From Heliocidaris erythrogramma (taxonomy: Eukaryota; Echinodermata; Echinoidea; Camarodonta; Echinometridae), in assembly GCA_025617745.1 (NCBI GenBank), contig CM046869.1, positions 13,473,168-13,537,167 of the forward strand: a stretch of DNA of 64,000 bases, given 5' to 3'. The translations under genes and the position numbers were made by a program. This document shows, in pieces, positions 34,136 to 60,460 of the stretch (the first letter of the stretch is position 1; the number at the start of each line of letters is the position of its first letter). Below the pieces are notes generated by a model. It saw only the letters and a list, made by a program, of their open reading frames with translations, was not told the origin of the DNA and ran no database searches.

Positions 34136-34279
34136 CTATGTCAGGAACTGTTCAATGCAGCAATCAAAGACAGTCTGGTTGCGATGCCAGAACGTATGAT
34201 TGACCCCAGCTATACCATAGGGGTGTAGTGCCCCGCGAGCATCTAGTGTCTTCAGGCCAAAGTAGTCTTTCTGATATAC
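34136..34279 (-). CDS. PPT2: PPT2 exon 9: catalytic His and stop
   Basis: The acceptor is TTAAACAG|GTATAT. It has 47 codons plus TAG at 34136-34138. It encodes [18 protein letters not shown], then GVNHTFWH with the catalytic His275, and ends CIEQFLT. FGLKTL and H-T-x-W-H are PPT2 hallmarks. I could not place a poly(A) signal with confidence, so the 3' UTR end in the AT-rich DNA below 34136 is unknown. Confidence 0.9.
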   Translation of the reverse strand, partial: VYQKDYFGLKTLDARGALHPYGIAGVNHTFWHRNQTVFDCCIEQFLT

Positions 34280-37200
34280 CTGTTTAAGGTGAAACAGAAG
34301 GAAATATTGCTAAGATTAAAAAACTCATTAAATCAAAATTTAGGTTTGAAATCACAACCTGTCAATGTTTTAACCAATCATGCATGAATTATCATTCCTT
34401 CCCATCAAGAGTGCAAAATCTTTGGCTTGCAATTGAAAAAAAAGACTTGGGTCAGTAGATACATGTAGTAGCAACAAAAATGGCTGCAAGCACTTGCACA
34501 CATTCTCTCCTATCCTGAGAGGATAAGCTGAGATGAGCACTTGTGCTACTAATGATGATACATGATGTAAACACATTATGATCTTACCTCTTGGTCTTTC
34601 ATCTCTACAATGTTCACACAGTCTTTGTCATAGGTGGCAAACTGACTGTAACAAAGAAAAAATAAAGGGCATTTTATTCAAAATGCTACTCCACATAAAG
34701 TTGAGTACTGGTCATGTGACTACATGACTATATGAAAGGAACTATTTGGAAGCACTCTGGAAAGCTTGATTATGGAGCATATAAATATTGATGTATAGTG
34801 TGAGAATGATCAATGAGAAATTGACTAAATTTTCATGGAAATTACGTGCACTGCACACAGAAATCAGCCCTGGAAATCGGTATATGGGACTACACATATG
34901 TGGACCAAACTTTTAAGCTATTTCTAGTCATATTTCAAATATGAGGGTATTTGGAGAGCAATCCTTTCAGGGGACATTTCCAAGATGATATTGTTCCAAA
35001 CTTCCAGACATAAAAGACTGAGAAAGCTCATAAATTATTTTCCACTTTTACCAGAAATTAACCTTTTTCTCTTTAAAGTGGCATTAAACTGGTAGAATTT
35101 GAACAGCGCCGTCTTACAGTCATTCCTAAATTAAGATTATAATTAGAGATTAGTTGCATTTATTTTCAATTTTCACTAACAACTGGCTTGTAAAATAAGC
35201 AATTTTTTAAATTTCTAACTATTACTTTTGACTTGCAAATGTAGAAAATTGCCTGCAAGTACAGTCTAAGCTTCTACAAAAGAATGGTGCATGATGGGAA
35301 AATAAGATACACAGACATTCTCTAACTCCTGTTAAAAGATTGCGCTATTTAGGAGGTTCAGTTTAAGGCAACTTTAAAAGCCTTGCAGACATTTCTGGAT
35401 CATTACTTACTTTTCTTAAGATAATATCCATCTGCATACAAGTCATTTTAATGCACACATTGTACAGAGTGAGTCAATAAAAAGGAAACCCATATTCAAG
35501 CCCAAATATCTTAAAAACCAAGTGAAATTGCTGAAATGTATTAACAATGGTACATGTATGATAGTTGATGATGTCTTCTTTAATTTGACAGGCTACTTAA
35601 AAAAATACGGTCATTGATAACAAGTTTTATGAAACGGGGCCCAGATGAAATGGGTAAATGAATGATTGAAAGTGGACGTGGTTTTTGCGAGCTCCCGATT
35701 TTCTGCTGTCTTTTGCCGTTATTTCTTCGAAACTGGTGATAAATTTTATACCATCGGATTTGGCTTTCGTCAGGGATTGTAACTGTATGCCTGTGTTATC
35801 GTTTTGTGGAGACACTCGTGTATTATCGTCGGTTCTTTAACATTTTTTCTGGCTTTCAGCTTAGGAAAAAGGTCTTCAAATTTTGAAAGATATCGCGTAT
35901 CCAAGAGCGTGAATAACACTCACCATAGACACGCGCCTATGCACGCGCCCCTACCATAACCCTACGCGGACGTACTTGCAGGATCTGTGTGCGCTCTCTT
36001 TCTTGTTACGTAACAAAGCAAGCCTCTCTACTATAGATGCCGCCGAAGAAAACAAGTCCTCAGATTGGGCCCGATGCTCTCTCTGTACTGAAGGACGAGA
36101 TATCGAAGCTGTCATCATCGCTAAACAACAAGCTGTCTCTCCTGGAGTCCATTGCCAACAAAGTCCGAGAAGGCCAGGCAGGGATTGTGGAATCAATCTC
36201 CTTCCTCGACGAGAAATATGAGGAGTTGAAGAAGACAACAGAACGGCTTGAAAAGGAGAATGAGGAACTCAAAGCAAATAACAAGAAGCTAAACCAGAAG
36301 GTAGACGACCTCGACAATGAAGTCAGAGACCTGGACCAGTACCACCGCCGAGTAAACCTTGAGATAGCTGGGATTCCAGAGCAGAAGGATGAGAAGCCTG
36401 AGGTGATCGCCTTGCAGGTGGCAAAGAGGGTCGACCCGGCAATCACAGAAAGGGATATCGACATCGCCCACCGGATTGGCTCGCCGAAAAACCGACAAGC
36501 AAGGCCTATCATCGTAAGGTTCTCTAATCGACGATCAAGGAATGCTGTCTATGAGGGGAGGCGCAAGCTGAAGGGTGTCTCCACCAAGGATGTTGGAGTT
36601 CATGGAGCACCAGGAAAGATTTTCATCAATGAGAATCTCATTCCTGCGACTCGGGCGCTGATAGGAGAGGTGAACGTGGCAAGGAGGAAGGCCGGATTCA
36701 AGTTCTTGTGGACTTATAATGGGAAGATCTATCTGCGAAAGAATGAAAAGGAGTCTCCTGTCATCGTCCACACCAGGGCAGACATTGCCAAGATCAAGTA
36801 AATATTCAATGTTGTCAATATGTCCTTTGTAAATATCAAATTTTTTCATGTTTGACCCTAATTCAAATGATACCGATGTAAGTCAAATACCAACGACTAT
36901 CGATGATATTGGAATCAACGACCCATTTACTGTAACCAATTCACAAATCTCTCCAAATAATTTTAATGTTACGATGGAAGAGCTGTTTCTGTCGTCCTTG
37001 AATGTTTCTCACATAAATATACGATCTTTAAACAGAAATTATAATGCATTTAGAGAATTGTATGAAGACGAATTCAAATCCAAATTCAATATAATAGGTT
37101 TATCAGAAGTATGGAACGTAAGAGAACCTAATCAATTCAACATGACCGGTTATAATCTAGAGTTACAATGTAGGACTAATCAGAGAGGGGGAGGAGTGGG

Positions 37201-40200
37201 AGTTTATATCCATTCTTCTTTAACTTATTCTAGGATTCCCACTTTGTCTTTGAATAATGCTGAATCTTTATGGATGCAAGTGTATATACAAAATACTAAA
37301 ATAACTGTCGGTGTCATTTATAGAAAACCCGATAGCAATTTTGAAGATTTCAAAGCTGAATTTAATTCATTACTACAGAATATGAATCTAGATAGAAATC
37401 GTTGTATAATTCTAGGAGATTTCAACATTAACCTCTTGACTGGTAATGAGAAAACAAATGATTTTTTATACATGACAGAATGTTTTGGTATGCGCCAATT
37501 AATCTCTAGCCCAACTAGAATTTCTAACACAAGCTCGTCACTTATCGACCATATATATTCAAACATTTCCTCTTATCATATCCAGTCGGGATGTATTGAA
37601 GTTGGTATCTCTGACCACTTACCTGTATATGGTATATTTGAGAATTTTGCAAGTACAACAAAGAAGAAAACCTTTACCTACAGAAACTATCGAAAATTTT
37701 CATTAGAATCTTTTCGTGATGAATTAAATGATGTCCAATGGCTAGATGTATATGAATGCATAGATCCAAATGAAGCCTATAATAAATTTCTCACGCTCTT
37801 TTTGAATATCTGTGATAAACATGCTCCGATTGAAACTAAAAGTGCAGTAAGCAAAAAGAATTCAAAACCGTGGATCACACGAGCTATCAAAAAATCAATT
37901 TCAAAAAAACACAAACTGTACTCCAAAGTTTTGAAATCACATTATGAGAAAGAATCTGTAGAAAAGTATAAAAGATACAGGAATATCCTAACCACAGTAT
38001 TAAGAAGTGCGAAACAAATGTATTTCAATGAATTGTTTGAAAGGGACAAAACCAATTCTAAAAAGACCTGGAAACACATAAATAATTTATTAGACAAAAG
38101 AAACACTTCTAAAAAAGATACTAAAGTGTTTGAACTATGTAAAGTTGATTCCGATGGTGCAATTAACACTGTTACTGAACCAACAGATATTGCCAATGTC
38201 TTTAATGATTTTTTTGTAAATGTTGGTCAAAAGTTAGCAAAAAAAATTAAGGATTCTAACCTTAGTTACGACCACTACTTGGGTACCCGCCAAAGCAGTA
38301 CGTTTTTCTTTTCACCAATTACTAATTCAGAAATTAGGGATACAATTCTAAATTTAGACCAAAACAAAGCATGTGGATATGACGATTTGCCAGCCAAGCT
38401 TTTAGTTGCGGCTGTTGATTTTGTTAGTGAACCCCTTTCTTATATCTTAAACACATCTTTTACATCCGGTATCTTTCCGGATAGATTAAAGATAGCAAGT
38501 GTGACTCCCATTTTCAAAAAAGGAACAAAAAATTTACCTGGCAACTATAGACCTATTTCTATCCTACCAATTATTAGCAAGGTATTTGAAAAATTAGTGA
38601 ATAGCCGACTAATGAAATTCTTAGAAAAGAATGGTATTCTCTACCAGCATCAATATGGATTTAGACATGGTTATAGTACTAAACTTTCATTAGTAAATTT
38701 GCTGAATCAAATTACCCAGCATACAGATAATGGTTCAGTTACAGTCGGTGTATTTATTGATTTTGCCAAAGCCTTTGATACTATTGATCATTCTATACTT
38801 GAGAAGAAATTAAATCATTACGGTATACGTGGAATAAGCTTACAGTGGTTTAAGAATTACTTATCACATAGATATCAGTTTGTTTGTTATGATGGTATAA
38901 AGTCTACCAGAAAGAAAATAGAATGTGGAATTCCACAGGGATCAGTTCTGGGACTGACTTTATTTCTCCTTTACATCAATGACCTACCGAATTCCTCGAC
39001 ATATTTTAACTTTCGTTTGTTTGCTGATGATTCAAATTTATTTCACACTTTCCATCCAGGAGAGAGCAGTATTGATTTATCAGCAATCAGTAGAAACTTA
39101 ATGGATATCTCAGCATGGTGCAGTACAAACAAATTGACAATTAATATTGATAAAACTAATTATATTTTATTTAGAAATAAAAGAAGAAAATACACATTAT
39201 CTGGTCATCTGTCCATTGATGACAAAAACATACAATCTGTTGATTCTGCATCCTTTATTGGAATTTGCATTGACCAAAACCTAGATTGGAAAAAGCACAT
39301 AAGCAACGTCTGCAAAACGATAAGCAAGAAAATTGGAATATTATATAGGATACGCCATTTTGTTTCAAAGAAAATATTAACAATGTTATATAATGCTTTT
39401 ATTCTGCCTCACATTATTTATGGATTAGAAGTTTGGGGAGCTGCAAACAAAACATTTTTAAATCCTTTATTGATCCTTCAAAAACGAATTGTACGAATGA
39501 TATCTTTCAAAGGTTTATGGCACCACACAGCTCAGTTATTCATTAATTTACAGATTCTAGATATATTTAAACAATATAGATATGTAATCGGAATGCTTAT
39601 ATTTGATCTCATAAATGATCGACTGCCTCATAAATTTTCAGATTATTTTTCATTTATCAATCATTCTTATCAAACACGATGTAGGGAAAATTGTAACCTC
39701 AAAGTAATAAAAATTAGAACAAATGTGGGGAAACAATCTATTTCATATTCAGGCCCTATTACTTGGAATCAGCTGCCAACAGGTTTAAGAAGTATAAATT
39801 CCAGAAGATCATTTAGTAGACAATTAAAAAAGATAATCCTCTGTCAATGAATTTCAACTATATATGAATAATAAAAAAGTAATTAGTATTAATGCTTTTT
39901 CATGTAAATATTGTAAATTGTAAATATATGTATCAATTGTAAATTGTAAATATGTTTGAATGTAAAATGATTAATATGTATAATAGTGATAATGGGCTGA
40001 CCTCGATTAGCATTATGCTATTTTGTTAGCTCATTTTACCAAAGTATTTCGATCTGTATTTATGCACTGTATATTCGTTGTATTCTTGGTAATAAATATT
40101 CTATTCTATTCTATGTTGGATGGAACATGTATACGAGAGACTTACCTTGATTGCCATGGGGTTATAACACCATCATCAGGACCACCTAACATCACAACAT

Positions 40201-43200
40201 TCTTCAGTCTTATGAAGTTCTTCCTCCATTCTGAAAACAAGATCGAAAGCATTACTTAGAGTCTCTTAATATGCTCTTAAATACTACTTATTATTAATGG
40301 TAAAATTGTTAATAAAGCATCTGAAATAGAGGATCTTTAAAATGTTATTTTCAAGCTTTGACAACTGAAAAGTGCAATTTTATATTCCCTTCAATTTTTT
40401 TTTTCTTCAAAAAGCATGAAATATTTAATTTTAAAAAAATGGCTAATTACAGATGATTTAGTACAACACGGCACATGCAAAAATGTACAATATTCAGCAA
40501 CATGTGTAAATCATGCCTTGAAGTACACACTTCTGAATTACAAGTATCAAAGAATAAAGGATGTTAATATTTTCAAATAACCAAATCATGCTCGTAACCC
40601 TTTAAATATTGTATTATTCAAAGATGAATGTATAATTTTTTTACATTAGCGTTCTAATTGTTTCCTGTTATTTACATTCACAGCAGGATCATGACCCACA
40701 TTACATGAAATAACTAGATGAATCTTCGGAATTTATGCCTCCGCCATCACCAAACTGGGAATGTATGGCATACATGTACACTCTAAAAAGGATTGGTCCA
40801 ACAAAATTACACATCTTTTCACTTAAAAAGCACAGGAGACAGAAAATTTATTTCATTTCATTTCCATCCCGTACAAATAAAGAACTTACCATTGATGACT
40901 TACAATCAACAAATACACCAAGGAAATAGATATTTTATAGCAAATAGACCACTGACCCCTTCAAATTTCTAAAATAGGTAGGCCTAGACTCCATACATCA
41001 TGAACCATTTTCATGTATATAATGACCTCTATGACCTTTGAACTTTGACCTTGAGACCCCAAAATCTAATCAGTTCATCGTCCCTCCCATATGCAGACAT
41101 GACCCAAGTTACAAACTGATCCAAGAAACGGTTTTGAAGTTATCGAGAGAACGAACCATTTTTATGTACATAATGACCTCTGTGACCTTTGACCTTGAGA
41201 CCCCAAACTCTAATCAGTTCATCGTCCCTCCATATGCATACATGGGCCAAGTTACAAACTGATCCACAAAACGGTTTATCGCGAGAACGAAAATGGGACG
41301 TACGGACGACCCGAAAACATAATGCCTACGGTGGGCGGAGGCATAAAAACTGGGCCCTGTTTCATAAAACTTGTGATCAATAACAAGATGCAATGACTGT
41401 TATAAGCTACTGAAATCCTTTCATCTGATTGGCTGATAGCAAATTTGTTATAGAGCTTTGGCAGTTGCTATTGATAACAAGTTTTATGAAACAGGTCCCA
41501 TCTACCATTCACTGTGGGATTCTTCTACCAAGGTTAAGTTTTAATACACAACATATTGATTACATTTGGATTGAGTACATAAACACATTTGATAAAAGAC
41601 ACAATACTCACGTTGGCTCTCATTGTGAGCACTCTGATTATTAAGCACTGCAAGGAAATCTGAGCTTCGTAAGTACTCTGGTTGGTGGTATGGATCTGAA
41701 AGAGTATCCAACACGGATAAACAAAACATTATAGAATATTTGAATCTAAAAAAATGAAGCCCAAACATTTAACCTTTTAGTCACTAAACCGCCTGGAACC
41801 ACCCTTCTTATTACTCACTGAACCGCCCGGGACCGCCCGTGGACTTTGACCTGTGTAACACTACAGCACATGTATTGTAGGGCATATTGGTCGCTTAAAT
41901 TTTGTGTGTGCTATCTTTACACATAAACCATTTAGAATACGCATTGAAGCGATGCGTTACTGTGGAAAGATTTTGCATACAGCATCGAGTCTATACCGCA
42001 AGATGGTTTACCGAGACCGAGTTCAGTGAGTAAATGACTACAATACGCATAATCCTCAGGTGCTAAAAGGTTAAACAGCAATTCATAAACTTAGATCCAC
42101 TTTAGGAATTGGAATACTATGCAGTGGCATATCTAGGAGGCAGGGGGGGGGGGGCACGTGCCCTGGCGGCACTTGGAGGGGGTGCAAAAAACGTAAAAGA
42201 GAAAAAAAAAATTGCTGCTCCCTCGGTTGTACAATAACGTAGGTAGGTTTGGACCATGGGGGGGGGGGGGGGGGGCGTAACTTCTTTATTTGCCCCGGGC
42301 GCCATAATCCCTAGATACACCACTGATACTATGACAAGTGTTTGATCTAAATGTTGGGCACTGGGATATTTTTATGTTCTGTCTGTGATTTAAGAAGAAT
42401 TTTAAAGTATCATCGATGATGTCTGTCTGTACTGAAGTGCATTTCAGTGCTATCTCACAGACATCAGCATGAATCTGTCCGCACACACAGCCGTCTGCTT
42501 GCCTATACATGTATGTTGCAAGAGGGAATTGATATCCTGACACAGGATGTGAAGTACTTTTCACCTTTTATATGTCTCAGTTTCCACCAAAAGAGGGGGA
42601 GGGGGATTAACAGCAGCTCAGCATTGTTATGGTAGTATCTTGCTTTTTATCAACTTAAATCAGAGAAATGTTACAATTAGTTTTGGGCACTCACAAATTG
42701 ATAGATGGGCTTTGAAACAAGTATATCATATACAATAAACACACAATTATTTGACTTTTACGCCTGTTTATATGCATCTACAGGTTTGAATCTTCTCTAT
42801 GTGATATTTGCTCTTCAGACAACTTCCTTGTCTATGTCATTTTCTTCAAATCATCCAGCACTGAAGTAATTTGAAACATCACATCCATTACACTGTAATT
42901 AATCTAAGCATAATTTGTATTCACCCCGAAGACAGACATGAAGAAAAATAATTTATACATGTAAACTACACATCAAAACCAATACACAGTGGCCCAGAAA
43001 GAAAGCAACACTTGAGATCTGCAATTTAAACGACATCATTGATACAGTATCATTAGTTAATTAGGTAGAAAATTCATTTCTGAGTAAAATGACACCACGA
43101 TCATCAATTTTAGTTAATGCCTTTTGATTCTATGTGTAGCTATTTTGTGAGGCATGCCATTTTAAAAACTTACTTCTTCTGCAACTGTAGTTATGATTGA

Positions 43201-46200
43201 AGCAGCAGGAAATTTGCATATGACAGCTTTGCATACAGTCATCTTTGTTGACAAACGCATGGCTGCTCTTGCTTTGGAAACAAAGACAACGTGAATGAAA
43301 CGGAGATGTATGGGAAGCCATCATGTGCAGATTTCTCGCTGCTTCAAGCATGAAAATAATTTTCTACCCAATAAAACAAGAACTAATGATATTGAGTTCA
43401 ATGATGTAGTTGAAATTGCAGATCTCAGGTGTTGTGTTCTTTCTAGGACACCCTGTAATAAGGAAATTAATCCCGGTAATAACAGTAGCTTGCAAATGAT
43501 ATCCTGCTAAAATAAAGACAAATGGCATTAAAGAAACTTAGGATCTGGTTCAACTTACCATTCCAATATTCACAAACAGAGATCAGTTGACCTAAGTGAC
43601 CGAGATCATAACACACCCTAGTATAGATGAGACACAAATGAACAGTTTACTTTTCATTATACATGTACTATGGCTTATGACTCTGAGCAATATGATAAAT
43701 TAATGAGTACAAGCATTTTGCCACAAAACATTGAAGTGTACCAAACACCTATTATGGCTTGAAAATATAAAATCAACGTCAAAAAACTTTACCTGGCATT
43801 CTTTGGGTTCACTGGTAAAGGAGTATTAAGAAAATAAAGGATAAAAAAAGTGTGCATATGTATGCAACCCAACTTGGAGTTGGGTTAGGCACGGGCCATA
43901 TTCCTGGCAAGCGCATATGGGTGCTTTGACTAGTCTAATCACAAGTCGCTTTTATGTTTATTGAGAGTGTATATACAAATCTCTACTATTTGTTCATATT
44001 TTAAATATAGTTTAGTGACACAGAACCTTGAATATACAGAACAATATATTTGTTGTTCCTTTAATGTTACCCTTGAAAGGTAACATCCTTCCTGTATGTA
44101 CTGTGTATTGAAAGGAATACACAGCAGCAGTGAATGTTATTTATCTGGATCTATTAAATACATTACACTATACACAAACATGTACATAAACGCCATGGGA
44201 ACTCATTATACATAATATTTAGCTTAAACACATAAAAGCCATGTAAGTCAAACCAAAAAAAAAATTATATGTATCATTCTATACTCCTTTGTTATGAAGA
44301 TGCTGAAATGAATTACATGTAGGTTTCGTGTCGCCCCACGACAATATATTGTAGATGGACATTCGTTCTATTTACCAAGCCTTGAAAATAGTTCATCATT
44401 ATCAGATTGTGCCTACAAGTCCATATCGAGGAAGTTGCAACCAATCGGACAGGTTCATCTTCGATAGCAAATATTTTATCAAAGGCTCATATCTATATGT
44501 TATTGAACATGGTGCTAGATGATGAGTATAAAGGAGAAAATTTAGACCAAGTTCTAAGTGGCTCTGTGTATCTTGACTTCTGAATGGAGTTAAGATTGAG
44601 CTTAAATCTAGTGTTGGATTGAAATTTAGAAGACTACAGGCAAACAAGGTTTAAACCTAGGCTTAATTTCCAAAGCTCAGTATTTGTTGTAACAGTACAA
44701 GGCTATTAACCTAATACAAGGTTCTAACCATAGCAAACACTACAGACAATACAAAAGACAAGCATTAACCCTTTCGAGACAATTGACCACATTTTGTGGT
44801 TTGGCTCAATAACTTTTGATTCAAAGCTCTAAAACATATTCCAGATACATGAATAGAAAGAGGAAAATTTTCCGCACACACTATTTCCATTTTTGTTGCA
44901 TGACCATATTGCCTATGATGCCAGGAGTTTTAGAAACGAGAATAAGCTTTGAGATCCTTAAATTGGCAACACATTGACAGGTCAAAGTCATTGTTTTTCA
45001 TCAAAATTGGCAATTTTGTCCACTTTGACATATTTCTAACCATGCATACTGTTTTCAAAGACATTACATGTTATTAGAACCATGTAGCACTGAAAGAAAA
45101 ATAGTACTGTTGCCAATTTGAAGAAGATGTGATAAATTTAGGTGATAAATTTAGCCCTTAAATAATTCCTGTCCTGAAAGGGTTAAAAAAACAACTGTAG
45201 ATGACTAGACTTCAATGAAACAAAATCATAGGTTGAGTTTGCAGTTAATTAGGAAGCAGAAATTCTACTCATGATATTGAGAATTCTTTGATATATTCTA
45301 CTTCCTTGTCCTTCTCTTCCTCTTGTAGTTAACTGATTTCATTATCCATCATGATTCTGTCAGTTTGTAAGAACAAGGTCTATTTGAGATGAAAGCCCCA
45401 TGACGGAAACAAATTCAGAATATGGCAAAACAAAGACTTGATCAGAACAAAGTCAAACTGAGTATTGCCCATAGCAGTTTAGTTTCTTCTTTTAGTAACG
45501 TTTCATTTTTACATTTTGATCCAGAATACTCTAAATTACAAATTACCGGTATACAAATGCAGAAAGTGCACAAATCACACGATAGTTTGAGTCCATTTCC
45601 AATGCAGTACACTGTTCCGTTCATGAATGAGCAATTTAATTGAAAATAATAATTGTGGAAGTCTCTATTAAATTGGCAATGCAAAGTGAAATTTATAATC
45701 AGCATTTTCATGTACAAATTGACACTTTCTTGTTGATATTTTGAAATTTCCATTCATAATGGTTAATTTAATATACTTTTTTTAACGATGAAAGAGTGGA
45801 AAATATATATAATAATAATAATAATAATTATTATTATTATTATTATAATAAAAATAAAATTGTAAAACGGTAATAAAATTATCATATATAATTGGTGCCA
45901 AATTGAGGAAGAATGCCAATTCATTTACACATTTAGAAAACTTTAAACTGCTAGGGGTTAGACTGATAGAAAGCAGCTCACCTGTAGACCTCATACTTGC
46001 TCTTGGGAAATTCAGGGACATAACTTGTATCTGAAATAAACAACATGGAAAGGTCAATAAAATAATGATGAACTGCAAAATATTTGGGCAGCGTTTCATC
46101 AACCGTCATAAGTACAAGTTCGCCAACATCCCATTGACACGTGTGTATTAAAATTAACACAAAGTCATATTTCAATGGGATGTCGACGAACTTGACGTAT

Positions 46201-47481: not shown

Positions 47482-50400
47482 TTTTTTTTTTTGGGGGGGG
47501 GGGGGGGGGGTAACCGCCACAGACCCACCTCTTGGTCGCTAGTCCCCCCCCCCCCACCCCCACCCGCCATGACATGTAGATTTCAAAATTGTAATTTCAT
47601 GGTACAGTGTAGGTTTCAGAGGGCAATCAGATAATCTAATATAAAAAAACTATAAAATGTATATTTATAAATTCTGTTCAAACACAAGTGGGATCTGCCC
47701 ATCAACTTCCGAGGTTCTTACAGTATAAAAGTTTGCTTAAAGTCAATAAAACAGTTTGTTAACCTAAGTAACAACCCTTTGTATTCATGTGGGATGCATG
47801 TATGCAGAGCTTACATCATGTGATGAGTGCATGTACAGTTGTATCCAGGTACTTTGCAGAATATGCAATGCAATGTGATTCTTTGTGTGACAATAGTCTA
47901 TATGTGTATAATGTAGGTTAAAGACAGGTACCAGGATGCATACCAAGCATTTATTTATCTATTTATAAGCAACATCGTTAAGAGGGTAATTTTTGTGAAG
48001 TGAAAAACTTTTTCGCCACTCGCATCCTCTGAGGATCAGACCATATAATTCCATGGGTCTTTCCTCCCATATCCATTAGTATCAGCTTGCATATAAAATG
48101 TACATGTAGATCTGTTCACACTAAATGTATGTGCATAGGCTGTCTTGCATGGTGTGGCTTTTGTATTTTGTTTTGAGCGTGCACTACATGTATTTTTAGT
48201 TTAATTGCCTGAAATTAGTGTGTCACGCATGCAGTCGTAACGAACCATTATCCTTTTTCTTCTGGTCTTGCCTTTATATAAATCATAGGCAAAATGCAAA
48301 GTAATTCAAAATTACACAAGTGGGAGAGAATGAAAAAGCAGAAATTATATCTTCTGACATTAATTAAATTTCAAATAATGACAGTGGGTGTGAAGACAGG
48401 AAAGGACCTTTGAAAAATGATAGGAATAAAATAGATTTTTAATGAATTCTAAAATGAATAGTTTAACTAGTAAGGAAAGTGCAAGAAGAGGAGCTATTTC
48501 CTGGGCCTGGGTAACATGATCCTGGAATACCCTCTGGTTTTTCCAGACTCGTTCAGTGGAGGGGGAGGGGGAGCACCATGTTTCTTTCAAGGGAATAGCC
48601 TTTAGATTTGGTAGTGGGGAGAAGTACAGGTTGCTTGAAATATTTTAGTATTTTGGTTCTTTTTTTCTTATGTTACTCCCTTTTACATTTTCCCGTTTTT
48701 GTCAAAAGAGGGGTCTTTTGATCCTGGATCCACCTATGATATTGAACAAGTGCAGAAATAACTATTAAACAACTTAATTTGAATTTGAACTGAATTTCAC
48801 AGACAGTTGGCTGGTTTTATTCATGTATTAAAATATATCTCAACAGGATACAGTCAGCTCAGGAATTTTTTTCCATTGTGGCCCTGTAATGTTAAATAAT
48901 ATGATAAACATAGCAAAGAAAACAAAGAATAGACTAATGATGTAAGAAATATTAATTATCAGGGTACTTACGGTCAATATATGGGACTAGAAGTGGAATA
49001 AAAATAGCATGAACACTTATTCAGAAAATATTAACAGGTCTGAATTGTGGAGAACAAAATGACTATTTCAATATGAATCAGAGTGAAATTGATGTCAATA
49101 ATATCAAAAGAAGAGGGTACGGTATAAAGAGCAGAGCATAAATCTATACAACACATACTAGGTCAGCGGCAGATGTGGACATTATGCTGCCATGCCCCCC
49201 CCCCCCCTTATCAATTTCTAAACATGCCACTAAAAGAAAATCTCACCTCCAAATTGGCCCATTTGTGGGGAAGAAAGCAGGATCAAATTCTCCACATTGT
49301 GGTTGTCCATCTTCTCAATCAAAGCTCTACACATCAGACCACCTATAAGAAAATATGGAGCAGAATTTGAAAAAGCAAAACAAAATGAACATGACTGTAT
49401 CTCCTAGATATGCCTTCGCCTAGATTCAGTTGATAGCTCAAACTGTTCTTGAAATATTGTGATAATCAGAAGAAAATGCCTACAATTACATGTACATGTA
49501 TGTGCATTGACCTCTTTTACATTTGACTTTACACCTTATAACCCTGAAGTCTGATCACACCTTATAACCCATAAAGTCATGAATATGAAATAGTTGATGG
49601 TGATGACATGTAGCTAAAAAAACCCCATAATTTCACATAAAATGACCTCAATGACCCGTCATTTGCAAAATCTAATCAGATCGTCTTCCTTATGGTGATA
49701 CATACATAAACTAGTACCAAGTTTGAAGTTCATACCTCAAATGGATATTGAGATATTGCGTTAACGATGTTAACACCTGAAATGTCAGAAATTGTATCTG
49801 TGACATTTGACCTTTGACCTACATGAACAAAAAACTTATCGGTTCATCGCACTGTGGTGATGCATACTAGTTCCAAGTTTTAAAGTTAAAGGACAATTAA
49901 CCCCACGTGATATTCTAGATGCACCTATTGTCTGCTACGTCTTTCCATGGAGGCTGCCATTTTGTGCATGACACGGATCATTAGGTACCATATGCATTGA
50001 TAATAGCCTACCTTTACAACAGATACGTCGCTTTGTTCTGATTGTATTACGATTGTTATTGGCCATGGGCCTAGATAATTGACGACCCATGAGTTCTAAT
50101 AGCCATCCTGTAAAGCAGATTCCTCGCTTTGTTTTGGTATTGTTACGATTGTCTCCGTCCTTGACGTCAATTCTCCGTCCTTGACGTATATTTTTTATGA
50201 AGTATATTTTTTATGAACAAATTAAGACCTTTTAAAAAATATATAAAACTAAACTTACATTTCAGAATATGTGACTTTATCTAATATATATTTGTCCTCT
50301 AAAAATCAATTACAAGTTAACGATGAAGTAAATTTTACTTGGGATGAAAAATATGTTCGTGTACACATAAAGTAATGGCAGCCCCCTTATTATTGCTAGC

Positions 50401-53400
50401 AGACGATAACTTGGCTGGAAAATAGTGATTTATATCTATATCCTGTGTTTTTACATGAAATTGCATGTATCAAATAAGAGGCATATACTACACCATTCAA
50501 AATAAGCTAATTCATACGCTGAGGTTAATTTCCCTTTAATCGCTCAAATTGTTCAAGAATGTGTTAAGGCAAAAATATGATATTTCATGGTAAATGACCT
50601 CCATGACATTTGACCTTTGACCTACATACATACATACATTGGATCATGGAACATTACTCAAATAAAGACATACATGTGTACACATGTAGATAAATCCATT
50701 ATTTAAGTCTGGGGTGGTATTCTTAAAAATGTTTTATCTCTAATACTGTTGTGTCTTCACCATTAAAACAAAATTGGCATTCTGAAAATTGTAACTTTTG
50801 TTGTATCTTTTCTTTCATTTCTTTACTCTGCGAATGATCCTAATTTGCATATGTACGCTGGAGGATAATACCATGAGATTATTGGTATTCTGAAAATTAT
50901 TATGTCTTCTGTTGTTTCTTATTTTCCATGGTAATTACAACAAAACATCTCAAGATGTAAGTAATTTTTCTAGCTCAGTATCAATCAGGCAGTACATGAT
51001 CAAATAGCAAGATGGAGGCTGTGTGTGATTCAAGATCTCATAGAGGAGACATTTTGAAGAAACTGCAGAGTGGGATTCAATGATTTTAGATCAGAACATG
51101 TACATGTATGTGACTTGATTCAAGCAGGAGAGGGTGAGCCATTTTGTTAATTAATTTCAGTCCAATATAGCGCATAACGCATATAAAACGTGTAATTTAA
51201 TAACTATACACCCGAGATTGATATACGTGCAAAGTGCTTTTGACATAAGGGGTGCTCCTACATGTATTGGTTGACCTTCATGTACATATATAAAATCCAT
51301 TTTGATTGGCAAAGTGTCAAAAAAATGGGCATGTCAAAGATAAGATAAAGACGGTTCTTAGAGAGATAATATCCCACTAAAACATTTTTCAGAATACCAA
51401 CTTATAATAATAATAGCGCTGTATCAACAAAAACGATCTAACAAAAGTAAAAATATCTACATGTATCTCTTTCCAACTCAAATAAAAACCTTTTGCTTAG
51501 TCCAATAAAAAGTCATTATAATTAACAAGAGTTTATACAGAATAAATACACACTAGTGTATCACATTGTGCAATAATTGCACACTGAAAGAGCTTAATAG
51601 TTATCATATGTGAGACGTGCATCTATTGTGAACAGTCTGAAAGAGAAACTGCATAGAAATCAATTACATGTACAATTACATAAAAATGACTATTTCTCTT
51701 TCAGGATCCCAAACCTATTTTGATTAAGTTCTGTAAGTGATTAATCACTATCATCATCGATACCTAGGGTTTTTAGAGAGTAAAACTGAAACCCATTAGT
51801 CCTACTTTAACAGGAACACCTTCATAAACAACGAGGAGTCTTGACCTGCAATATATTTCCATATCTCATGGAGTGCGTGTGATGCGTAAAAAAGTGAATA
51901 CGCATTTAAATACGCAAAGGTTAAGACAATGGATGTATGTGAACAGCCCTTGCAAATAAATGCTTGGGCAAGGACAAGATAATGTTTTTCTACCTGTATA
52001 GAAGTCATTACTAGATGAATCTCCGACCACGCACGGTCGGAATTTATGCCTCCGCCATCACCAGATTGGCAATGTATGGCATACATGTACACTTTAAAAA
52101 GGATTGGTCCATCAAAATTACAAATCTTTTCACTTCAAATGCACAGGAGACAGAAAGTTTAATTTGATTTTCAAATAAAAAACTTAATTACCATTGATGA
52201 CTTACAATCATAGGTAGGCCTAGACATCACAAACCATTTTAATGTACAAATGACATTTGAACTTTGACCCTGAGACCCCCTAAAATCTAATCAGTTCATC
52301 GTCCCTCACATATGCATACATGGGCCAAGTTAGAGGTTTATCTGTCAAACAACTGAAGTTATTACAAGAACGAACATTTTTATGTACATAATGACGCCTT
52401 TGACCTTTTACCTTGAGACCCTAAAATCTAATCAGTTCATCGTCCCTGCCATATGCAAACGTGGGCCAGGTTAGAGGTTTATCTGTCAAACAACTGAAGT
52501 TATTACACGAACGAACTATTTTTATGTACATAATGATGCCTCTGACCTTTGACCTTGAGACCCTAAAATCTAATCAGTTCATCGTCCCTCCCATATGCAA
52601 ACGTGGGCCAGGTTAGAAGCTGATCCGCCAAACGATTCCTAAGTTATCACAAGAACGAACCATTTTTAGGTATATAATGACCTCTATGACCTTTCACCTT
52701 TCACCTTGAGACCCCCTAAAATCTAATCAGTTCATCGTCCCTCACATATGCATACATGGGCCAAGTTAGAGGTTTATCTGTCGAACAACTGAAGTTATTA
52801 CACGAACGAACTATTTTTATGTACATAATGATGCCTCTGACCTTTGACCTTTGACCTTGAGACCCTAAAATCTAATCAGTTCATCGTCCCTCCCATATGC
52901 AAACGTGGGCCAGGTTAGAAGCTGATCCGCCAAACGATTCCTAAGTTATCACAAGAACGAACCATTTTTAGGTATATAATGACCTCTATGACCTTTGACC
53001 TTTCACCTTGAGACCGCAAAATCTAATCAGTTCATCGTCCCTCCAATATGCATACATGGGCCAAGTTACAAGCCGATCCGCCAAACTGTTTTGAAGTTAT
53101 CGCGAGAACGAAAAGGGGACGGACGGACGACCCGAAAAACATAATGCCTCCGGTACCACCTACGGTGGGCAGAGGCATAAAAACACAAGGACATGTAATG
53201 GTGAAAATTGAGGAATTACATGTACATGTAGGTTTCATACAATTAATGATAATATTGAATGGCTTTTCTTTCCTGGGTCACATCGCACTCGCTTTGAAAA
53301 CATTTCACTTGTCGCGTCGTGCCAACTTGTGAAATATGCTCAGAGCTTGTGCGATATAGTACCCTTGTATTGCATTCAATATTATATAATTATCAAACAA

Positions 53401-56400
53401 ACTGTATGCCCCGAATTCGTGAAAGATGTTTATCTTAACCCATGGTCTAAATCATGGTTTAAAATTTAAACACTCAAGATGGACTAAATTAAGCGCACAT
53501 GAGCGCATTACTTTCTGGCCAATGGGCAACACACGGACATGCGTGTACTATATACGCTTGGAGGTTTAAACCATGGGTTAAAAGGGCCACGTTCACACTC
53601 CCATGTGATGCATTGACTTTCTTACCTTGTGAGAAGCAGACCATGTTCACACTCTCATGTGATGCATTGACTTTCTTACCTTGTGAGAAGCAGACCACGT
53701 TCACACTCTCATGTGATGCATTGACTTTCTTACCTTGTGAGAAGCAGACCACGTTCACACTCCCATGTGATGCATTGACTTTCTTACCTTGTGAGAAGCA
53801 GACCACGTTCACACTCCCATGTGATGCATTGACTTTCTTACCTTGTGAGAAGCAGACCACGTTCACACTCCCATGTGATGCATTGACTTTCTTACCTTGT
53901 GAGAAGCAGACCACGTTCACACTCTCATGTGATGCATTGACTTTCTTACCTTGTGAGAAGCAGACCATGTTCACACCTTCAGGGGATGCATTGACCACTT
54001 CCTGAACGGCCGTCAAGTAGTATGGGAACTGTTTCCATAGGTGTTGTAGACTTTTGGAGTAACTGAAGATGTCTGGGATGGTGATGTTTGTACCAGGATG
54101 TGCCTGACAAAGGTAGAACTAAGGAATTAATTCTCAGAAAAATGACCTCTGGTTGTGAATCTCAACACAAATAGTACAAGAAGACTAGCAGAAGCAGCCC
54201 ATGGACAACCACGGGTGCTAGCTTAGTTTATGATCATCATATTTGTCACAATACATGTAAGTTCAATTGAAAAAACCCAAACAAACATATGACAAGTTTA
54301 GGGGTAAAGTAGTATTTTCTACCAAGAAGTATGTATGACATGCAAGTATGTGTTAATCATCCAAATCCTGCATGAATTTTGAAGAAAATACCTTTTCATC
54401 TTGATGCATATTAAATTGTTTTAGATCTGATACTTACAAATGGCCCCAGTAGTTATCTATTTCATGTCGACCCTACATGTATGGCCTGTGGATGACCCAC
54501 GACCTCAAACTTCACATCCAGGATTCTCGCCCTTTTTGAGGAACGATTTGAACTTGCCTTGTTTCTATGGGCTATACTCAGAGAAAGGCTATGAACGCGT
54601 GACATTCATTGGCTGCCCCTTGTAAAGAATGAACGAATTAAAAGAAATGTTGCTCAGGGCTCCGTTCTCTTCGAGGGATCACACGTGGGCCCCCTTACAC
54701 TAGTCTTGGGAGGACTGCCTGGATTCCTTTTTTTTATACATATACATTTAACAACAAAATTATTCATACCCCTTGGAAAATTCTAGTTTTTTGCATTTTT
54801 CCTAAAAATGAATGGTTAACTGAATTTAATTACACATCACTTGAATACATTTAGTTATCATCTGCAAATGAATGCTGTTTCTGGTTTCACCTCATTTGCA
54901 TAACAATAGAAAAGGTGAATTATCCAAACTGGGTGATGTTCAAAATTATTCATACCCTTGGTGATCTATTGACTTTGTCAATCAGTATGAATCCAGTCCT
55001 TGTGATTAATGCTCGTAACACTTTCTTCACACTGTCACAATGCTTCTGGAGGTCTCTCCTGAGATATCAGGCCAATACCTGGTCTCCAAAAGCCCAATCT
55101 CCTTGAGGATGTTGTCCACACATGCCATCACCTGGTCTTCAGGGGATTTGGTGGATTTAAAGCAGATTTTGTGTTTGCAGGTGGTGTAGTTTTAGACGTC
55201 ATGAGGATAGAACTATGATATTGATATTTCGTTAATATTCCTTACATTTTAATGACAATTCTGTATTTCTAAGTTGAAACAAAGCACTCTTCCTGGAGGG
55301 ACTTCCCTAGAGGCCTTCACTGTTGCACTGTCAAGGGAAGGTATTTCCTGATACTTTTGTTCCATTATTATTAAGAATGTTTAGGGAGGCCATGGTAGTT
55401 GTCTAAAGGTTGGATGGTGCCAATTTTATCAGTTTATTCAGTTACACTGATTGACACATTTTTGATATGGACACCTGCAAGTGGGTACTCTAGTGAAGCT
55501 TAAAATACTGATCTTTATGTTCCAGTGCACTGTCAAAGTGGTAGCATTTTGTGCACTGCAGCTGGTAACATGGAGGGCATATGGTATAAATTTGGTTTAC
55601 ATTCATTTTGATATCAAGGATTGTAGCTTTCATACCAAAGATACAAAGAATATACCATATGCAGAATGATATACAGTAACAGTCAATGTGGGATGTGTAT
55701 GGTACTCAAAGGTTACATACTGTTATTCATGGTGACCTGACGTTAGAGTCATGCAATGACTTTAATATCACCAGCATGGCCTTCCTGAGCACTCTGATTA
55801 AGAATGGGGCCAATGAATAAAGGTGAACCCTCCCACAGGCAGTGCAAAAGGGAAGGGCTCTTCAGGAATGGTGCTTTGCTTCATAAGTAGATACAGAATT
55901 TTCATTAAAATGCATGGAATAAATGACCGAAAATTTCAATATCATAGTCCTGTCATCATGAAGTCGATAACTGCATCACCTGTAGGACACGAAATCTGAT
56001 GAACTCCCTGAAGGTCAGGTGAAGGCATGTGTGGACAACATCCTCAAGGAGATTGAGCCATTTGAGAACAGGTACTGGCCTGATATCCCAGCAGAGACCC
56101 CTCCCCGGAAGCCTAGTGACGGTGTATTAAAATAAAGTGAATTACAAGCATTAATCACAAGGATCGGATTCATACTGATTGACAAAGTCAATAAATCACC
56201 AAGGGTATGAATAATTTTGAACATCGCCCAGTTTGGATAACTCAGCTTTTCTATTGTTATGCAAATGAGGTGAAACTGGAAACGGCATTCATTTGCAGAT
56301 GATAACTAAATGTATTCAAGTGAAGTGCAAGTAACTTCATTTAACCATTCATTTTTAGGAAAAATGCAAAAAAACTAGAATTTTCCAAGGGGTATGAATA

Positions 56401-59400: not shown

Positions 59401-59613
59401 AAACTTCTTAGTGACGTGTTTATCAATATCATGTTTATGATGTATCAGTTTACGCACCTTTAAGATCATATCGCGTAGGAAATGCATTTCTGCTGCTCCG
59501 TCAAGCATGCCATGGATGATAATAACCGGCTTATAGCCTTTGGTGGCAACGAGCAGAGTCGTGAACAGAAGAAAAATACGAGAAATCGTAGTTGACATGG
59601 TTGAAGTCTCCAT
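34136..59613 (-). CDS. PPT2: Palmitoyl-protein thioesterase 2 (PPT2) gene, nine coding exons
   Basis: This is a lysosomal alpha/beta-hydrolase thioesterase that removes fatty acyl groups from thioesters. Joining nine exons (59458-59613, 53950-54103, 49247-49342, 45982-46030, 43559-43617, 41612-41695, 40146-40230, 34588-34645, 34136-34279) gives 885 nt, 294 residues plus stop. Every junction is GT-AG and every phase agrees. Residues 13-25 form a hydrophobic signal peptide, followed by YKPVIIIHG near the mature N-terminus. The nucleophile elbow CFSQGG holds Ser102, GGPDDG holds the acid (Asp218 or Asp219), and His275 lies in GVNHTFW. Sequons at N58, N90, N191, N196, N274 and N281 fit a lysosomal glycoprotein. 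Length is close to the vertebrate protein (about 300). Identity comes from recalled family motifs, not a search. Oddities are the minisatellite across the exon 2 donor and the LINE in intron 7. Confidence 0.93.
34588..34645 (-). CDS. PPT2: PPT2 exon 8, 58 bp
   Basis: It runs from GTTACAG|TCAG to CAAGAG|GTAAGA and encodes [19 protein letters not shown], aligned with the FFGFYD...EMEEQ segment. A second AG four bases downstream would break the frame, so the first is used. Phase is 2 in and 0 out. Confidence 0.85.
36037..36801 (+). CDS. LINE ORF1 protein, coiled-coil RNA-binding, 254 aa
   Basis: The ORF1 protein binds element RNA in the retrotransposition particle. Residues about 45-105 are a heptad-rich coiled coil ([18 protein letters not shown]). 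An RRM-like region follows with [21 protein letters not shown] and [17 protein letters not shown]. The C-terminal part has IFINENL and [13 protein letters not shown], as in many LINE ORF1 (transposase_22-like) proteins. No CCHC knuckle is seen. It has no internal stop and ends 46 bp before ORF2. Confidence 0.88.
   Translation: MPPKKTSPQIGPDALSVLKDEISKLSSSLNNKLSLLESIANKVREGQAGIVESISFLDEKYEELKKTTERLEKENEELKANNKKLNQKVDDLDNEVRDLDQYHRRVNLEIAGIPEQKDEKPEVIALQVAKRVDPAITERDIDIAHRIGSPKNRQARPIIVRFSNRRSRNAVYEGRRKLKGVSTKDVGVHGAPGKIFINENLIPATRALIGEVNVARRKAGFKFLWTYNGKIYLRKNEKESPVIVHTRADIAKIK
36848..39850 (+). CDS. LINE ORF2 protein: endonuclease and reverse transcriptase, 1000 aa
   Basis: It nicks target DNA and copies the element RNA at the nick. 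The N-terminal APE-type endonuclease (about residues 50-265) shows N57 in HINIRS, E87 in GLSEVW, Y158 in GVIYRKP, D191/N193 in GDFNIN, D234-H235 and D256-H257 in ISDHLP. The reverse transcriptase (about 530-810) has D638 in FIDFAKAFD, then IPQGSVLG, and FADD at 725-728. All expected catalytic residues are present and the frame is open throughout. One oddity is GSVLGLTLF, where related elements usually have GSVLGPLLF. The C-terminal 190 residues carry the usual thumb-like region. It may be recently active. Confidence 0.93.
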   Translation: MFDPNSNDTDVSQIPTTIDDIGINDPFTVTNSQISPNNFNVTMEELFLSSLNVSHINIRSLNRNYNAFRELYEDEFKSKFNIIGLSEVWNVREPNQFNMTGYNLELQCRTNQRGGGVGVYIHSSLTYSRIPTLSLNNAESLWMQVYIQNTKITVGVIYRKPDSNFEDFKAEFNSLLQNMNLDRNRCIILGDFNINLLTGNEKTNDFLYMTECFGMRQLISSPTRISNTSSSLIDHIYSNISSYHIQSGCIEVGISDHLPVYGIFENFASTTKKKTFTYRNYRKFSLESFRDELNDVQWLDVYECIDPNEAYNKFLTLFLNICDKHAPIETKSAVSKKNSKPWITRAIKKSISKKHKLYSKVLKSHYEKESVEKYKRYRNILTTVLRSAKQMYFNELFERDKTNSKKTWKHINNLLDKRNTSKKDTKVFELCKVDSDGAINTVTEPTDIANVFNDFFVNVGQKLAKKIKDSNLSYDHYLGTRQSSTFFFSPITNSEIRDTILNLDQNKACGYDDLPAKLLVAAVDFVSEPLSYILNTSFTSGIFPDRLKIASVTPIFKKGTKNLPGNYRPISILPIISKVFEKLVNSRLMKFLEKNGILYQHQYGFRHGYSTKLSLVNLLNQITQHTDNGSVTVGVFIDFAKAFDTIDHSILEKKLNHYGIRGISLQWFKNYLSHRYQFVCYDGIKSTRKKIECGIPQGSVLGLTLFLLYINDLPNSSTYFNFRLFADDSNLFHTFHPGESSIDLSAISRNLMDISAWCSTNKLTINIDKTNYILFRNKRRKYTLSGHLSIDDKNIQSVDSASFIGICIDQNLDWKKHISNVCKTISKKIGILYRIRHFVSKKILTMLYNAFILPHIIYGLEVWGAANKTFLNPLLILQKRIVRMISFKGLWHHTAQLFINLQILDIFKQYRYVIGMLIFDLINDRLPHKFSDYFSFINHSYQTRCRENCNLKVIKIRTNVGKQSISYSGPITWNQLPTGLRSINSRRSFSRQLKKIILCQ
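40146..40230 (-). CDS. PPT2: PPT2 exon 7: catalytic acid segment
   Basis: It runs from GTTTTCAG|AATGG to CAAG|GTAAGT and encodes [19 protein letters not shown] then GVITPWQS. The [11 protein letters not shown] block is nearly invariant in PPT2 and carries the catalytic Asp. The donor is about 31 bp from the 3' tail of an antisense LINE. Confidence 0.92.
40713..41349. mobile_element. TIR element with internal AGGTCA-rich repeats, copy A
   Basis: Ends TTTATGCCTCCGCC and GGCGGAGGCATAAA. It has two internal repeats of about 143 bp containing TGACCTTTGACCTTGAGACC. Confidence 0.88.
41352..41502. mobile_element. MITE of the GGCCCTGTTTCATAAAAC type
   Basis: GGGCCCTGTTTCATAAAACTTG and CAAGTTTTATGAAACAGGTCCC ends with the shared GCTACTGAAATCC core. 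Confidence 0.85.
41612..41695 (-). CDS. PPT2: PPT2 exon 6, 84 bp
   Basis: It runs from TTTCAG|ATCCAT to CAAC|GTGAGT and encodes [19 protein letters not shown] followed by two N-glycosylation sequons (NQS, NES). It matches the D-P-x-H...S-x-F-L-A-x-(I/L)-N segment of the family. Confidence 0.88.
41769..42074. mobile_element. 306-bp TTAA-flanked MITE
   Basis: TTAA|CCTTTTAGTCACT and GTGCTAAAAGG|TTAA ends. It starts 74 bp from the acceptor side of PPT2 exon 6. Confidence 0.85.
42122..42325. mobile_element. hAT-type MITE, target duplication ATACTATG
   Basis: CAGTGGCATATCTAGG and CCTAGATACACCACTG ends with ATACTATG on both sides. Confidence 0.92.
42985..43457. mobile_element. 473-bp foldback element
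   Basis: Ends TACACAGTGGCCCAGAAAG and CTTTCTAGGACACCCTGTA. The arms run more than 100 bp (CTTGAGATCTGCAATTTAAAC against its complement). Confidence 0.85.
43559..43617 (-). CDS. PPT2: PPT2 exon 5, 59 bp
   Basis: It runs from TACTAG|GGTGTG to AATG|GTAAGT and encodes [19 protein letters not shown]. This aligns with the (I/V)CY...CNYW block of PPT2. Phase is 2 in and 1 out, matching its neighbours. A foldback transposon (42985-43457) lies about 100 bp downstream in intron 5. Confidence 0.85.
44765..45186. mobile_element. 422-bp piggyBac-type MITE
   Basis: TTAA|CCCTTTC and GAAAGGG|TTAA ends. In PPT2 intron 4. Confidence 0.88.
45808..45855. repeat. (AAT)n/(ATT)n microsatellite
   Basis: Self-complementary triplet run. 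Confidence 0.92.
45982..46030 (-). CDS. PPT2: PPT2 exon 4, 49 bp
   Basis: A small exon, TTTCAG|ATACAA to TACAG|GTGAGC, encoding [17 protein letters not shown] across its two splice junctions. It aligns with the D-T-x-Y segment that follows QMGQ(Y/F)G in PPT2. A foldback repeat (46088-46226) starts about 58 bp beyond its acceptor. Confidence 0.85.
46088..46226. mobile_element. Foldback MITE beside PPT2 exon 4
   Basis: GCGTTTCATCAACCGTCATA and ATGGTTTGATGAAATGATGC arms; ACAAGTTCGCCAACATCCCA is inverted in the interior. Confidence 0.85.
47448..47510. repeat. (TTTA)n followed by poly-T and poly-G
   Basis: Simple repeat within a remnant of a TIR element whose GGGTGGCGATCCTGGG end lies near 46785. 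Confidence 0.88.
47510..49240. other. PPT2 intron 3 DNA without clear features
   Basis: I see only a possible TIR-element remnant near 48720 (ATCCTGGATCCACC). Confidence 0.5.
49247..49342 (-). CDS. PPT2: PPT2 exon 3: GGLMCRAL helix and SSPQMGQFG loop
   Basis: It is 96 bp, phase 1 in and phase 1 out (TCTTATAG|GT, GGAG|GTGAGA). It completes the CFSQGG elbow and encodes [15 protein letters not shown] then [11 protein letters not shown]. Both segments match the expected PPT2 order right after the nucleophile. Confidence 0.9.
49490..50660. mobile_element. Degenerate AGGTCA-rich repeat split by a MITE
   Basis: TTTGACCTTTGACCTACATG segments occur on both sides of the TTAA MITE at 49886-50539. It is related to 40713 and 52009, diverged. 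Confidence 0.65.
49886..50539. mobile_element. TTAA-flanked MITE, copy 2, inverted
   Basis: 654 bp, same family as 17842-18485. It lies in PPT2 intron 3's upstream neighbour (intron 2) and splits an older repeat. Confidence 0.92.
50711..51400. mobile_element. 690-bp TIR element
   Basis: GGTGGTATTCTTAAAAATG and AACATTTTTCAGAATACCA ends are inverted. No ORF. Confidence 0.75.
52009..53180. mobile_element. Same TIR element, copy B, six internal repeats
   Basis: Ends TTTATGCCTCCGCC and GGCAGAGGCATAAA. Six 143-151-bp repeats each hold CTAATCAGTTCATCGTCCCT and TGACCTTTGACC motifs. In PPT2 intron 2, starting 770 bp from the exon 2 donor. Confidence 0.9.
53435..53581. mobile_element. 147-bp TTAA-flanked MITE next to the minisatellite
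   Basis: TTAA|CCCATGG and CCATGGG|TTAA ends, abutting the downstream end of the 54-bp array. Confidence 0.8.
53588..53999 (-). repeat. 54-bp minisatellite repeating the exon 2 end and splice donor
   Basis: Seven near-identical 54-bp units are visible on the minus strand, each containing TGCTTCTCACAAG|GTAAGA. Donors fall at exact 54-bp steps, the exon-intron boundary being at 53950, 53896, 53842, 53788, 53734, 53680 and 53626. The most upstream unit is the genuine exon 2 end; an eighth partial unit ends near 53588 against a TTAA-flanked MITE. Each unit is 18 open codons (about [18 protein letters not shown]). Confidence 0.95.
53950..54103 (-). CDS. PPT2: PPT2 exon 2: HPGTN segment to the nucleophile serine
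   Basis: The acceptor is TTGTCAG|GCACAT. The exon encodes [15 protein letters not shown] at its start and [11 protein letters not shown] at its end, in phase 0 to phase 1. The end given here is the first of seven identical donors (CACAAG|GTAAGA). It yields the usual family length. The six downstream donors lie in 54-bp repeats that stay open in frame, so longer exon forms are possible. Confidence 0.88.
54743..56418. mobile_element. 1.68-kb Tc1-like foldback with coding-like arms
   Basis: Ends TACATTTAACAACAAAATTA and its inverse (TTTTGTTGTTAACTGTA) are of Tc1/mariner type. Long arms (to about 55160 and from about 55965) are inverted copies. Each arm has a related reading frame: on plus near 55995-56125 and on minus near 55030-55110 both encode [10 protein letters not shown] then RYWPDI. 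No DDE transposase is recognisable in the centre. Confidence 0.78.
56654..57235. repeat. CGCTATTCATAAGGACC repeat tract
   Basis: Direct and inverted copies of this 17-mer on both sides of the MITE suggest an older foldback element. Confidence 0.75.
56696..57055. mobile_element. 360-bp mariner-type MITE rich in CCTATAGG
   Basis: TA|CCCAGGTC and GACCTGGG|TA ends. The interior repeats CCCATAGAA and CCTATAGG. It is inserted in a CGCTATTCATAAGGACC repeat (56654-57235). Confidence 0.88.
57864..58306. mobile_element. 443-bp foldback with internal repeats, 8-bp target duplication
   Basis: Ends ACGGAAGCTTATAAGTGC and GCACTTATAAGCTTCCGT are flanked by AAAAACCT on both sides. The interior has both orientations of AAGTCGACTTGCCGAGTT and CGTCTTCTTGTC at about 65-70-bp spacing. 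Confidence 0.92.
58310..59457. other. Proximal PPT2 intron 1, little repeat content
   Basis: No exon seen. It contains GTCACGTGAA at 58491-58500. Confidence 0.5.
59458..59613 (-). CDS. PPT2: PPT2 exon 1: start codon, signal peptide, first strand
   Basis: It has 52 codons and ends AAG|GTGCGT in phase 0. The ATG at 59613 was chosen because it is followed by a short polar stretch, a hydrophobic core ([11 protein letters not shown]) and then [14 protein letters not shown], the first strand and oxyanion loop expected of PPT2. Reading on past the donor diverges from the family and soon stops. Confidence 0.9.
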
Positions 59614-60169: not shown

Positions 60170-60460
60170 TTTATTATTTATATATAATGAATAATGTGAA
60201 ACCATTATCTATAAATAATGGAATTGCAAAGTTCATTATTTATATATAATTAATATTGTGTAACCATTATTTATAAATAATAGAAATTCCAAAATTCATT
60301 ATTTATATATAATTAATGAACAGAGGGTGTGAAATCATTATTCATCTATAATGGAAATTGTTAACTTTTATTATTTATATAAAATGAATAATGTGAAACC
60401 ATTATTTATAAAACAATGGAAATTGCAAAATTCATTATTTTTATATAATTAATATTCACT
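60170..60460. repeat. AT-rich minisatellite, about 63-bp units, 4.5 copies
   Basis: Units begin ATTATTTATATATAAT and include AACCATTATTTATAAATAAT. It lies about 560 bp upstream of the PPT2 ATG. Confidence 0.88.

Follow-up and report, generated by a model that had tools for sequence, protein, structure and literature searches.

The PPT2 gene of the sea urchin Heliocidaris erythrogramma carries, across the boundary between its exon 2 and its intron 2, a 54-bp minisatellite that is recent or has been kept homogeneous and that appears to have multiplied a real splice donor to seven identical copies. The first of these donors is probably the dominant one, the longer forms being minor products or not made at all. 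As judged from the DNA alone, the array is real and it belongs to a class that is already known, that of human IFI6, and the use of its donors is a candidate property. All positions given here refer to the window, that is, the whole stretch of 64,000 nucleotides that was analysed (positions 13,473,168 to 13,537,167 of contig CM046869.1, assembly GCA_025617745.1).

The gene lies on the minus strand and its nine exons join to encode a predicted protein of 294 residues with no internal stop. Exons 1, 2, 3, 5, 6, 7 and 9 were located by tblastn with a human PPT2 peptide, exon 4 was found by inspecting the reading frames and exon 8 by a scan for pairs of splice sites (which also bears on exons 5 and 6), and all of them are placed in the gene model and in the alignment to 1pja, the structure of human PPT2. 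Exon 1 (59458..59613, counted from the first ATG of the frame) encodes a hydrophobic start and the YKPVIIIHG strand; exon 2 (53950..54103 up to its first donor, 154 nt) has the acceptor TTTGTCAG|G and ends with CFSQ-G; and exon 3 (49247..49342) starts with GT-GGT-CTG. They are followed by exon 4 (45982..46030), exon 5 (43559..43617), exon 6 (41612..41695), exon 7 (40146..40230), which contains GGPDDG, exon 8 (34588..34645) and exon 9 (34136..34279), which contains the NHTFWH region and the stop codon. An earlier reading made from the sequence alone had named the gene PPT2, and this identity is supported by 1pja, its best solved match, which aligned over residues 24-293 of the predicted protein with 300 bits, as compared with 69 bits for the match to PPT1. 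Furthermore, the 294-residue form scores 220.4 bits against the Pfam family PF02089, whose profile it covers from position 1 to the last, 254, and Ser102 (SQGG), Asp218/219 (GGPDDG) and His275 (NHT) align with the same motifs of 1pja. We take the Ser of SQGG, the Asp of GGPDDG and the His of NHT to be the catalytic residues of PPT2. By these comparisons the gene is PPT2, as its match to this protein is closer and longer than that to PPT1, and it is intact, an enzyme being the predicted product. The urchin PPT2 resembles the human protein (lysosomal palmitoyl-protein thioesterase 2; 1pja, PF02089) along almost all of its sequence, including the SQGG elbow and the SHTxWH region, and its sole difference from known PPT2 is the array beside the elbow. 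When the 1.06-Gb assembly was searched with the gene, the eight matches obtained were all exons of the PPT2 locus (eight of the nine, the short exon 4 being missed), so that PPT2 appears to be single-copy, and no second locus of either the gene or the array was found in the assembly. The genome also has a match to bindin (239.9 bits), a sperm protein not known outside echinoderms, which 0 of 14 control genomes have, and this points to a sea urchin as the source.

Tandem Repeats Finder delimited the minisatellite at 53587-53995 with a period of 54, 7.6 copies, 97% matches, 0% indels and a score of 748, corresponding on the minus strand to seven full copies and a partial one of 31 nt. Copy 1 (53942..53995) straddles the splice junction, with the 46 nt that close PPT2 exon 2 followed by the opening 8 nt of intron 2, and the program and the gene model thus agree with the sequence-only reading, which had described a unit of this composition present seven times. 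The interval proposed there, 53588-54103, does correspond to exon 2 plus the array, but the repeat itself starts at 53995. According to the gene model and the donor scan, copy 1 is exonic, keeps P-E-G and has its donor after 53950. It is followed by copy 2 (53888..53941, H-E-S, donor after 53896), copy 3 (53834..53887, H-G-S, donor after 53842), copy 4 (53780..53833, H-G-S, donor after 53788), copy 5 (53726..53779, H-G-S, donor after 53734), copy 6 (53672..53725, H-E-S, donor after 53680) and copy 7 (53618..53671, H-E-S, with the Met of copy 1 and a donor after 53626); writing out the copies also showed the partial copy 8 (53587..53617, 31 nt), which has no donor. As its period is divisible by three, the array has an open frame on the plus strand as well (53493-54005, 170 aa), and no Rfam family matched anywhere in the window at gathering scores.

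With a unit of 18 open codons and an exon 2 that ends in phase 1, each of the seven donors leads into exon 3 without a shift of frame. In fact, each of the seven spliced forms has one stop only, at its end, and they would measure 294, 312, 330, 348, 366, 384 and 402 residues, with 1 to 7 CFSQ and 6 to 12 NxS/T sequons. It had been claimed that any donor keeps the frame and restores CFSQ-GG, with 0 to 6 extra blocks of 18 residues as potential products, and both statements hold in the gene model, where 7/7 forms are open and the computed lengths run from 294 to 402 residues. We assume that in the fold these predicted blocks would fall after the helix and before the strand that runs into the nucleophile. 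Replacing copy 1 with copy 2 gave 218.1 bits against PF02089, 2.3 bits lower than the original, and the whole-protein totals were 223.9 bits with one extra copy and 229.6 bits with six, each spread over two stretches. The Pfam profile does not, on these scores, condemn either the longer forms or the one with copy 2, and its use as an arbiter between copy 1 and the later copies was dropped, 220.4 versus 218.1 bits being indecisive.

The donor AAGGTAAGA (AAG|GTAAGA) is identical in the 7/7 full copies, all of which also contain CFSQ, just as the first inspection had suggested when it credited every copy with a good donor. With a hand-entered donor matrix, the array donor scores 10.83 and the eight donors of the gene range from 8.0 to 12.5. 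By the same matrix this score is equalled or exceeded at 14 of the 3510 minus-strand GT sites in the window; seven of them are the array donors, and the six of the 14 that fall within intron 2 are all copies 2-7. RNA folding predicted a similar accessibility for the seven donors (0.47-0.49 unpaired) and was therefore rejected as a pointer to a favoured one, 7/7 being about equal. Given this equality in both score and predicted accessibility, the sequence itself provides no preference for donor 1.

What favours donor 1 is that it alone would give a PPT2 of normal length and that the P-x-G of human PPT2 is kept in copy 1, the second argument resting on one human sequence. In the reading that we prefer, the 54-bp minisatellite would have expanded recently, or been kept homogeneous, over the junction of exon 2 with intron 2 in an intact PPT2 gene, and this expansion would have multiplied a genuine donor to seven. 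U1 could presumably pair with any of them, and the functional enzyme would be produced mostly from donor 1, the sole junction that yields the normal length. Donors 2-7 would add blocks of 18 residues just before the nucleophile strand, and they may be tolerated because the reading frame is kept in their products, in which the last of the included copies always restores the strand and the CFSQ-GG elbow. They would then give rise to minor isoforms or splicing noise rather than to selected protein variation, and the number of copies probably varies between alleles.

The idea that the array is a generator of isoforms stands as far as in-frame donors are present in all full copies; however, the openness of the frame and the intactness of the donors can be explained without selection. 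Copies 2-7 vary at only 2/54 columns, so that neither feature needs selection, and two columns taken at random would both miss the 9-nt donor with a probability of 0.69. Moreover, when the 54 nt around each PPT2 donor (46 exonic and 8 intronic) were duplicated in the same way, 6/8 units were open (5/7 when the array donor is excluded), the two phase-2 donors giving a 54-nt unit that would contain a stop, and by chance one period in three is divisible by three. With so few variable columns, that probability of 0.69 and six open units out of eight, the open frame and the intact donors are not evidence of donor use. A test for selection on copies 2-7 was abandoned, as two columns offer too few differences.

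A third control, which likewise makes the array less special, comes from other arrays of this genome. We surveyed 200 kb (including 2537 N) in 20 stretches of 10 kb, placed at round-number coordinates of 18 contigs, and found seven arrays with a period of 20-100 and at least five copies, which cover 1.0% of the bases. With this coverage some of the genome's donors would be expected to lie under such arrays. None of the seven reached 90% matches, a level attained by two arrays with three to four copies, and with its 97% the PPT2 array is unusually homogeneous relative to this survey, which points to a young age or to recent homogenisation. Between copy 1 and each of copies 2-7 there are four to six differing columns, including Pro/His and Gly/Ser changes, and columns 12, 14, 18 and 19 set it apart from all the other copies. 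In the 1pja alignment the human P-Q-G corresponds to the P-E-G of copy 1, and H-[EG]-S is found in 6/6 of copies 2-7. A Met codon is common to copies 1 and 7 and the E/G variants are scattered over copies 2-8, a mosaic that would fit an origin by unequal exchange. Because the array stops 31 nt into copy 8, 5 bp before an inverted-repeat element, we infer that at least eight copies were once present and that the end of the array has been lost.

It could be, on the other hand, that several of the seven donors are used to an appreciable extent, so that PPT2 would be made with 0-6 blocks beside the nucleophile, varying with the copy number from one individual to another, and that this variation is functionally relevant. 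We regard this as rather unlikely, although seven identical good donors, each keeping the frame, do speak for it. A further argument comes from the six columns that vary over the seven full copies, which all fall in columns 12-28 of the 54 (p about 0.009) and leave the 37 columns outside, including the donor, CFSQ and NAS, invariant, as would fit a constraint on the rest of the unit. However, in four of the six it is copy 1 that stands apart, and the clustering may for this reason be one event; likewise, an open unit is what 6/8 PPT2 donors would have given anyway. When exon 2 plus the whole array was folded as a single sequence, the model had two short strands per unit, with a pTM of 0.70 and a mean pLDDT of 69.1. 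By blocks of ten residues, the pLDDT stayed under 53 in exon 2 proper and where copy 1 begins, was 65 in the remainder of copy 1 and reached 74-82 from residue 51 onwards. The antisense of the array, a non-candidate protein used as a control, also gave repeated strands, with a pTM of 0.54 and a mean pLDDT of 60.3, the blocks within the repeats ranging from 50 to 74. Perfect repeats attract structure models of this kind, and the difference of 0.70 versus 0.54, obtained with one control and with single sequences instead of an alignment, is a hint only. A search of solved structures with the array model returned 174 matches at E <= 10 and none at E <= 0.001. The fuller version of this reading, a graded PPT2 series with 0 to 6 two-strand blocks of 18 residues before the nucleophile strand and a length that depends on the allele, seems improbable to us. 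If it were true, repeat number and splicing would determine how much is inserted next to the active site of a lysosomal enzyme.

A quite improbable alternative keeps the mRNA canonical even though several donors and AGs are used. The CTTCTCACAAG|GTAAG of each copy would act as a weak 3' splice site and pieces of the array would be removed stepwise from donor 1, in a manner resembling the duplication of AG|GY proto-splice sites as a route to introns. The AG|GT of each unit is indeed preceded by 11 pyrimidines in 16, and PMC2891723 describes the proposal that introns can be gained when AG|GY is duplicated in tandem. However, the array AG scores 3.47, below all eight real PPT2 acceptors (5.1-14.3), and 14% of the minus-strand AGs in the window score as well, both by hand-entered weights, and an intron of 54 nt would be very short.

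We find it very improbable that the intron-proximal donor 7 dominates and that PPT2 is made chiefly as the 402-residue form, with its seven CFSQ blocks. When identical donors are duplicated experimentally, the one nearest the intron is reportedly preferred, which would speak for donor 7 and against donor 1, and both the scores and the accessibility are equal across the seven; our search found no literature on competition between equal donors. Nevertheless, what is apparently the sole PPT2 copy would then carry 108 extra residues before the elbow, exon 2 would enlarge from 154 to 478 nt, and the P-x-G of copy 1 would sit in a spacer with no reason for its retention. Finally, a false array with a true copy number of one is extremely improbable even with a single assembly as the source, as the copies are not all identical, their E/G and M/V variants being arranged as a mosaic, the exon 2 side has no match elsewhere in the assembly and tandem arrays are common in the 20-stretch survey of this genome.

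In human IFI6 the repeat unit is of 12 nt, adds 4 residues each time and lies at exon 2 of a small membrane protein, whose 130-residue form is the shortest. This gene, also called 6-16, is described as having a minisatellite that supplies multiple splice donors (Turri et al. 1995, as cited in PMC4526556, PMC2572611 and PMC3618361); two downstream repeat units serve as further donors and give three mRNA species, the 130-residue form being predominant (PMC4526556). As in IFI6, the PPT2 repeat spans an exon/intron boundary, with a donor in 7/7 full units, and its unit length of 54 nt is divisible by three, all seven forms being open. Unlike that 12-nt unit, the PPT2 unit adds 18 residues, offers seven identical candidate donors and carries the codons of an enzyme's catalytic serine. 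More generally, minisatellite units can alter exon/intron structure, lengthen proteins and activate splice sites (Genome Biol 2009 R137, PMC2812944), and new introns are reported to arise from tandem arrays (PMC2812944, and Zhuo et al. 2007 as a citation), while intron gain through AG|GY duplication is described in PMC2891723. The cases in the passages of PMC2812944 concern elongation of exons or introns and novel introns through cryptic sites, whereas in PPT2 an existing donor has been multiplied. The sequence-only reading knew of no PPT2 like this one. No report of a PPT2 with a repeated donor was found in a literature search covering titles, the beginnings of abstracts and few subscription papers, but the mechanism is in print for IFI6 (PMC4526556). 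The same search yielded nothing on VNTR splice donors beyond the works cited here and nothing further on intron gain by tandem duplication. Among the matches listed for sea urchin minisatellites and splicing, PMC4039745 was not on point in the part available, and the words isoform, splice and variant are absent from PMC6035266.

The PPT2 array could serve as a natural experiment in which seven identical donors in a near-identical context, 54 nt apart, compete for one acceptor, always in frame, and reads over a single junction would reveal how position by itself guides the spliceosome in picking one of several equal donors. Such a choice is usually studied with artificial constructs. Moreover, if the longer forms are made and active, an alpha/beta-hydrolase would tolerate tandem copies of its own elbow segment.

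Several other repeated elements lie in and around the introns of the gene. A 147-bp element (53435-53581), with 17-nt inverted ends starting with TTAA, starts 5 bp past the last base of the array. A portion of this element is matched at 39 other places in the assembly, and its TTAA ends presumably indicate a piggyBac-like MITE. Intron 2 contains a second tandem array (52251-53068) with a unit of 151 bp/302 bp and 5.5 copies of the short unit, intron 1 a degenerate one (58045-58271) with a 53-bp unit and 77% matches, and further degenerate arrays with units of 31, 63 and 135 bp are found upstream of exon 1 (60171-60456). Intron 7, between exons 7 and 8, harbours an antisense LINE-like element on the plus strand with two long open frames (36037-36801, 254 aa, and 36833-39850, 1005 aa), the longer of which matches endonuclease and reverse transcriptase families.
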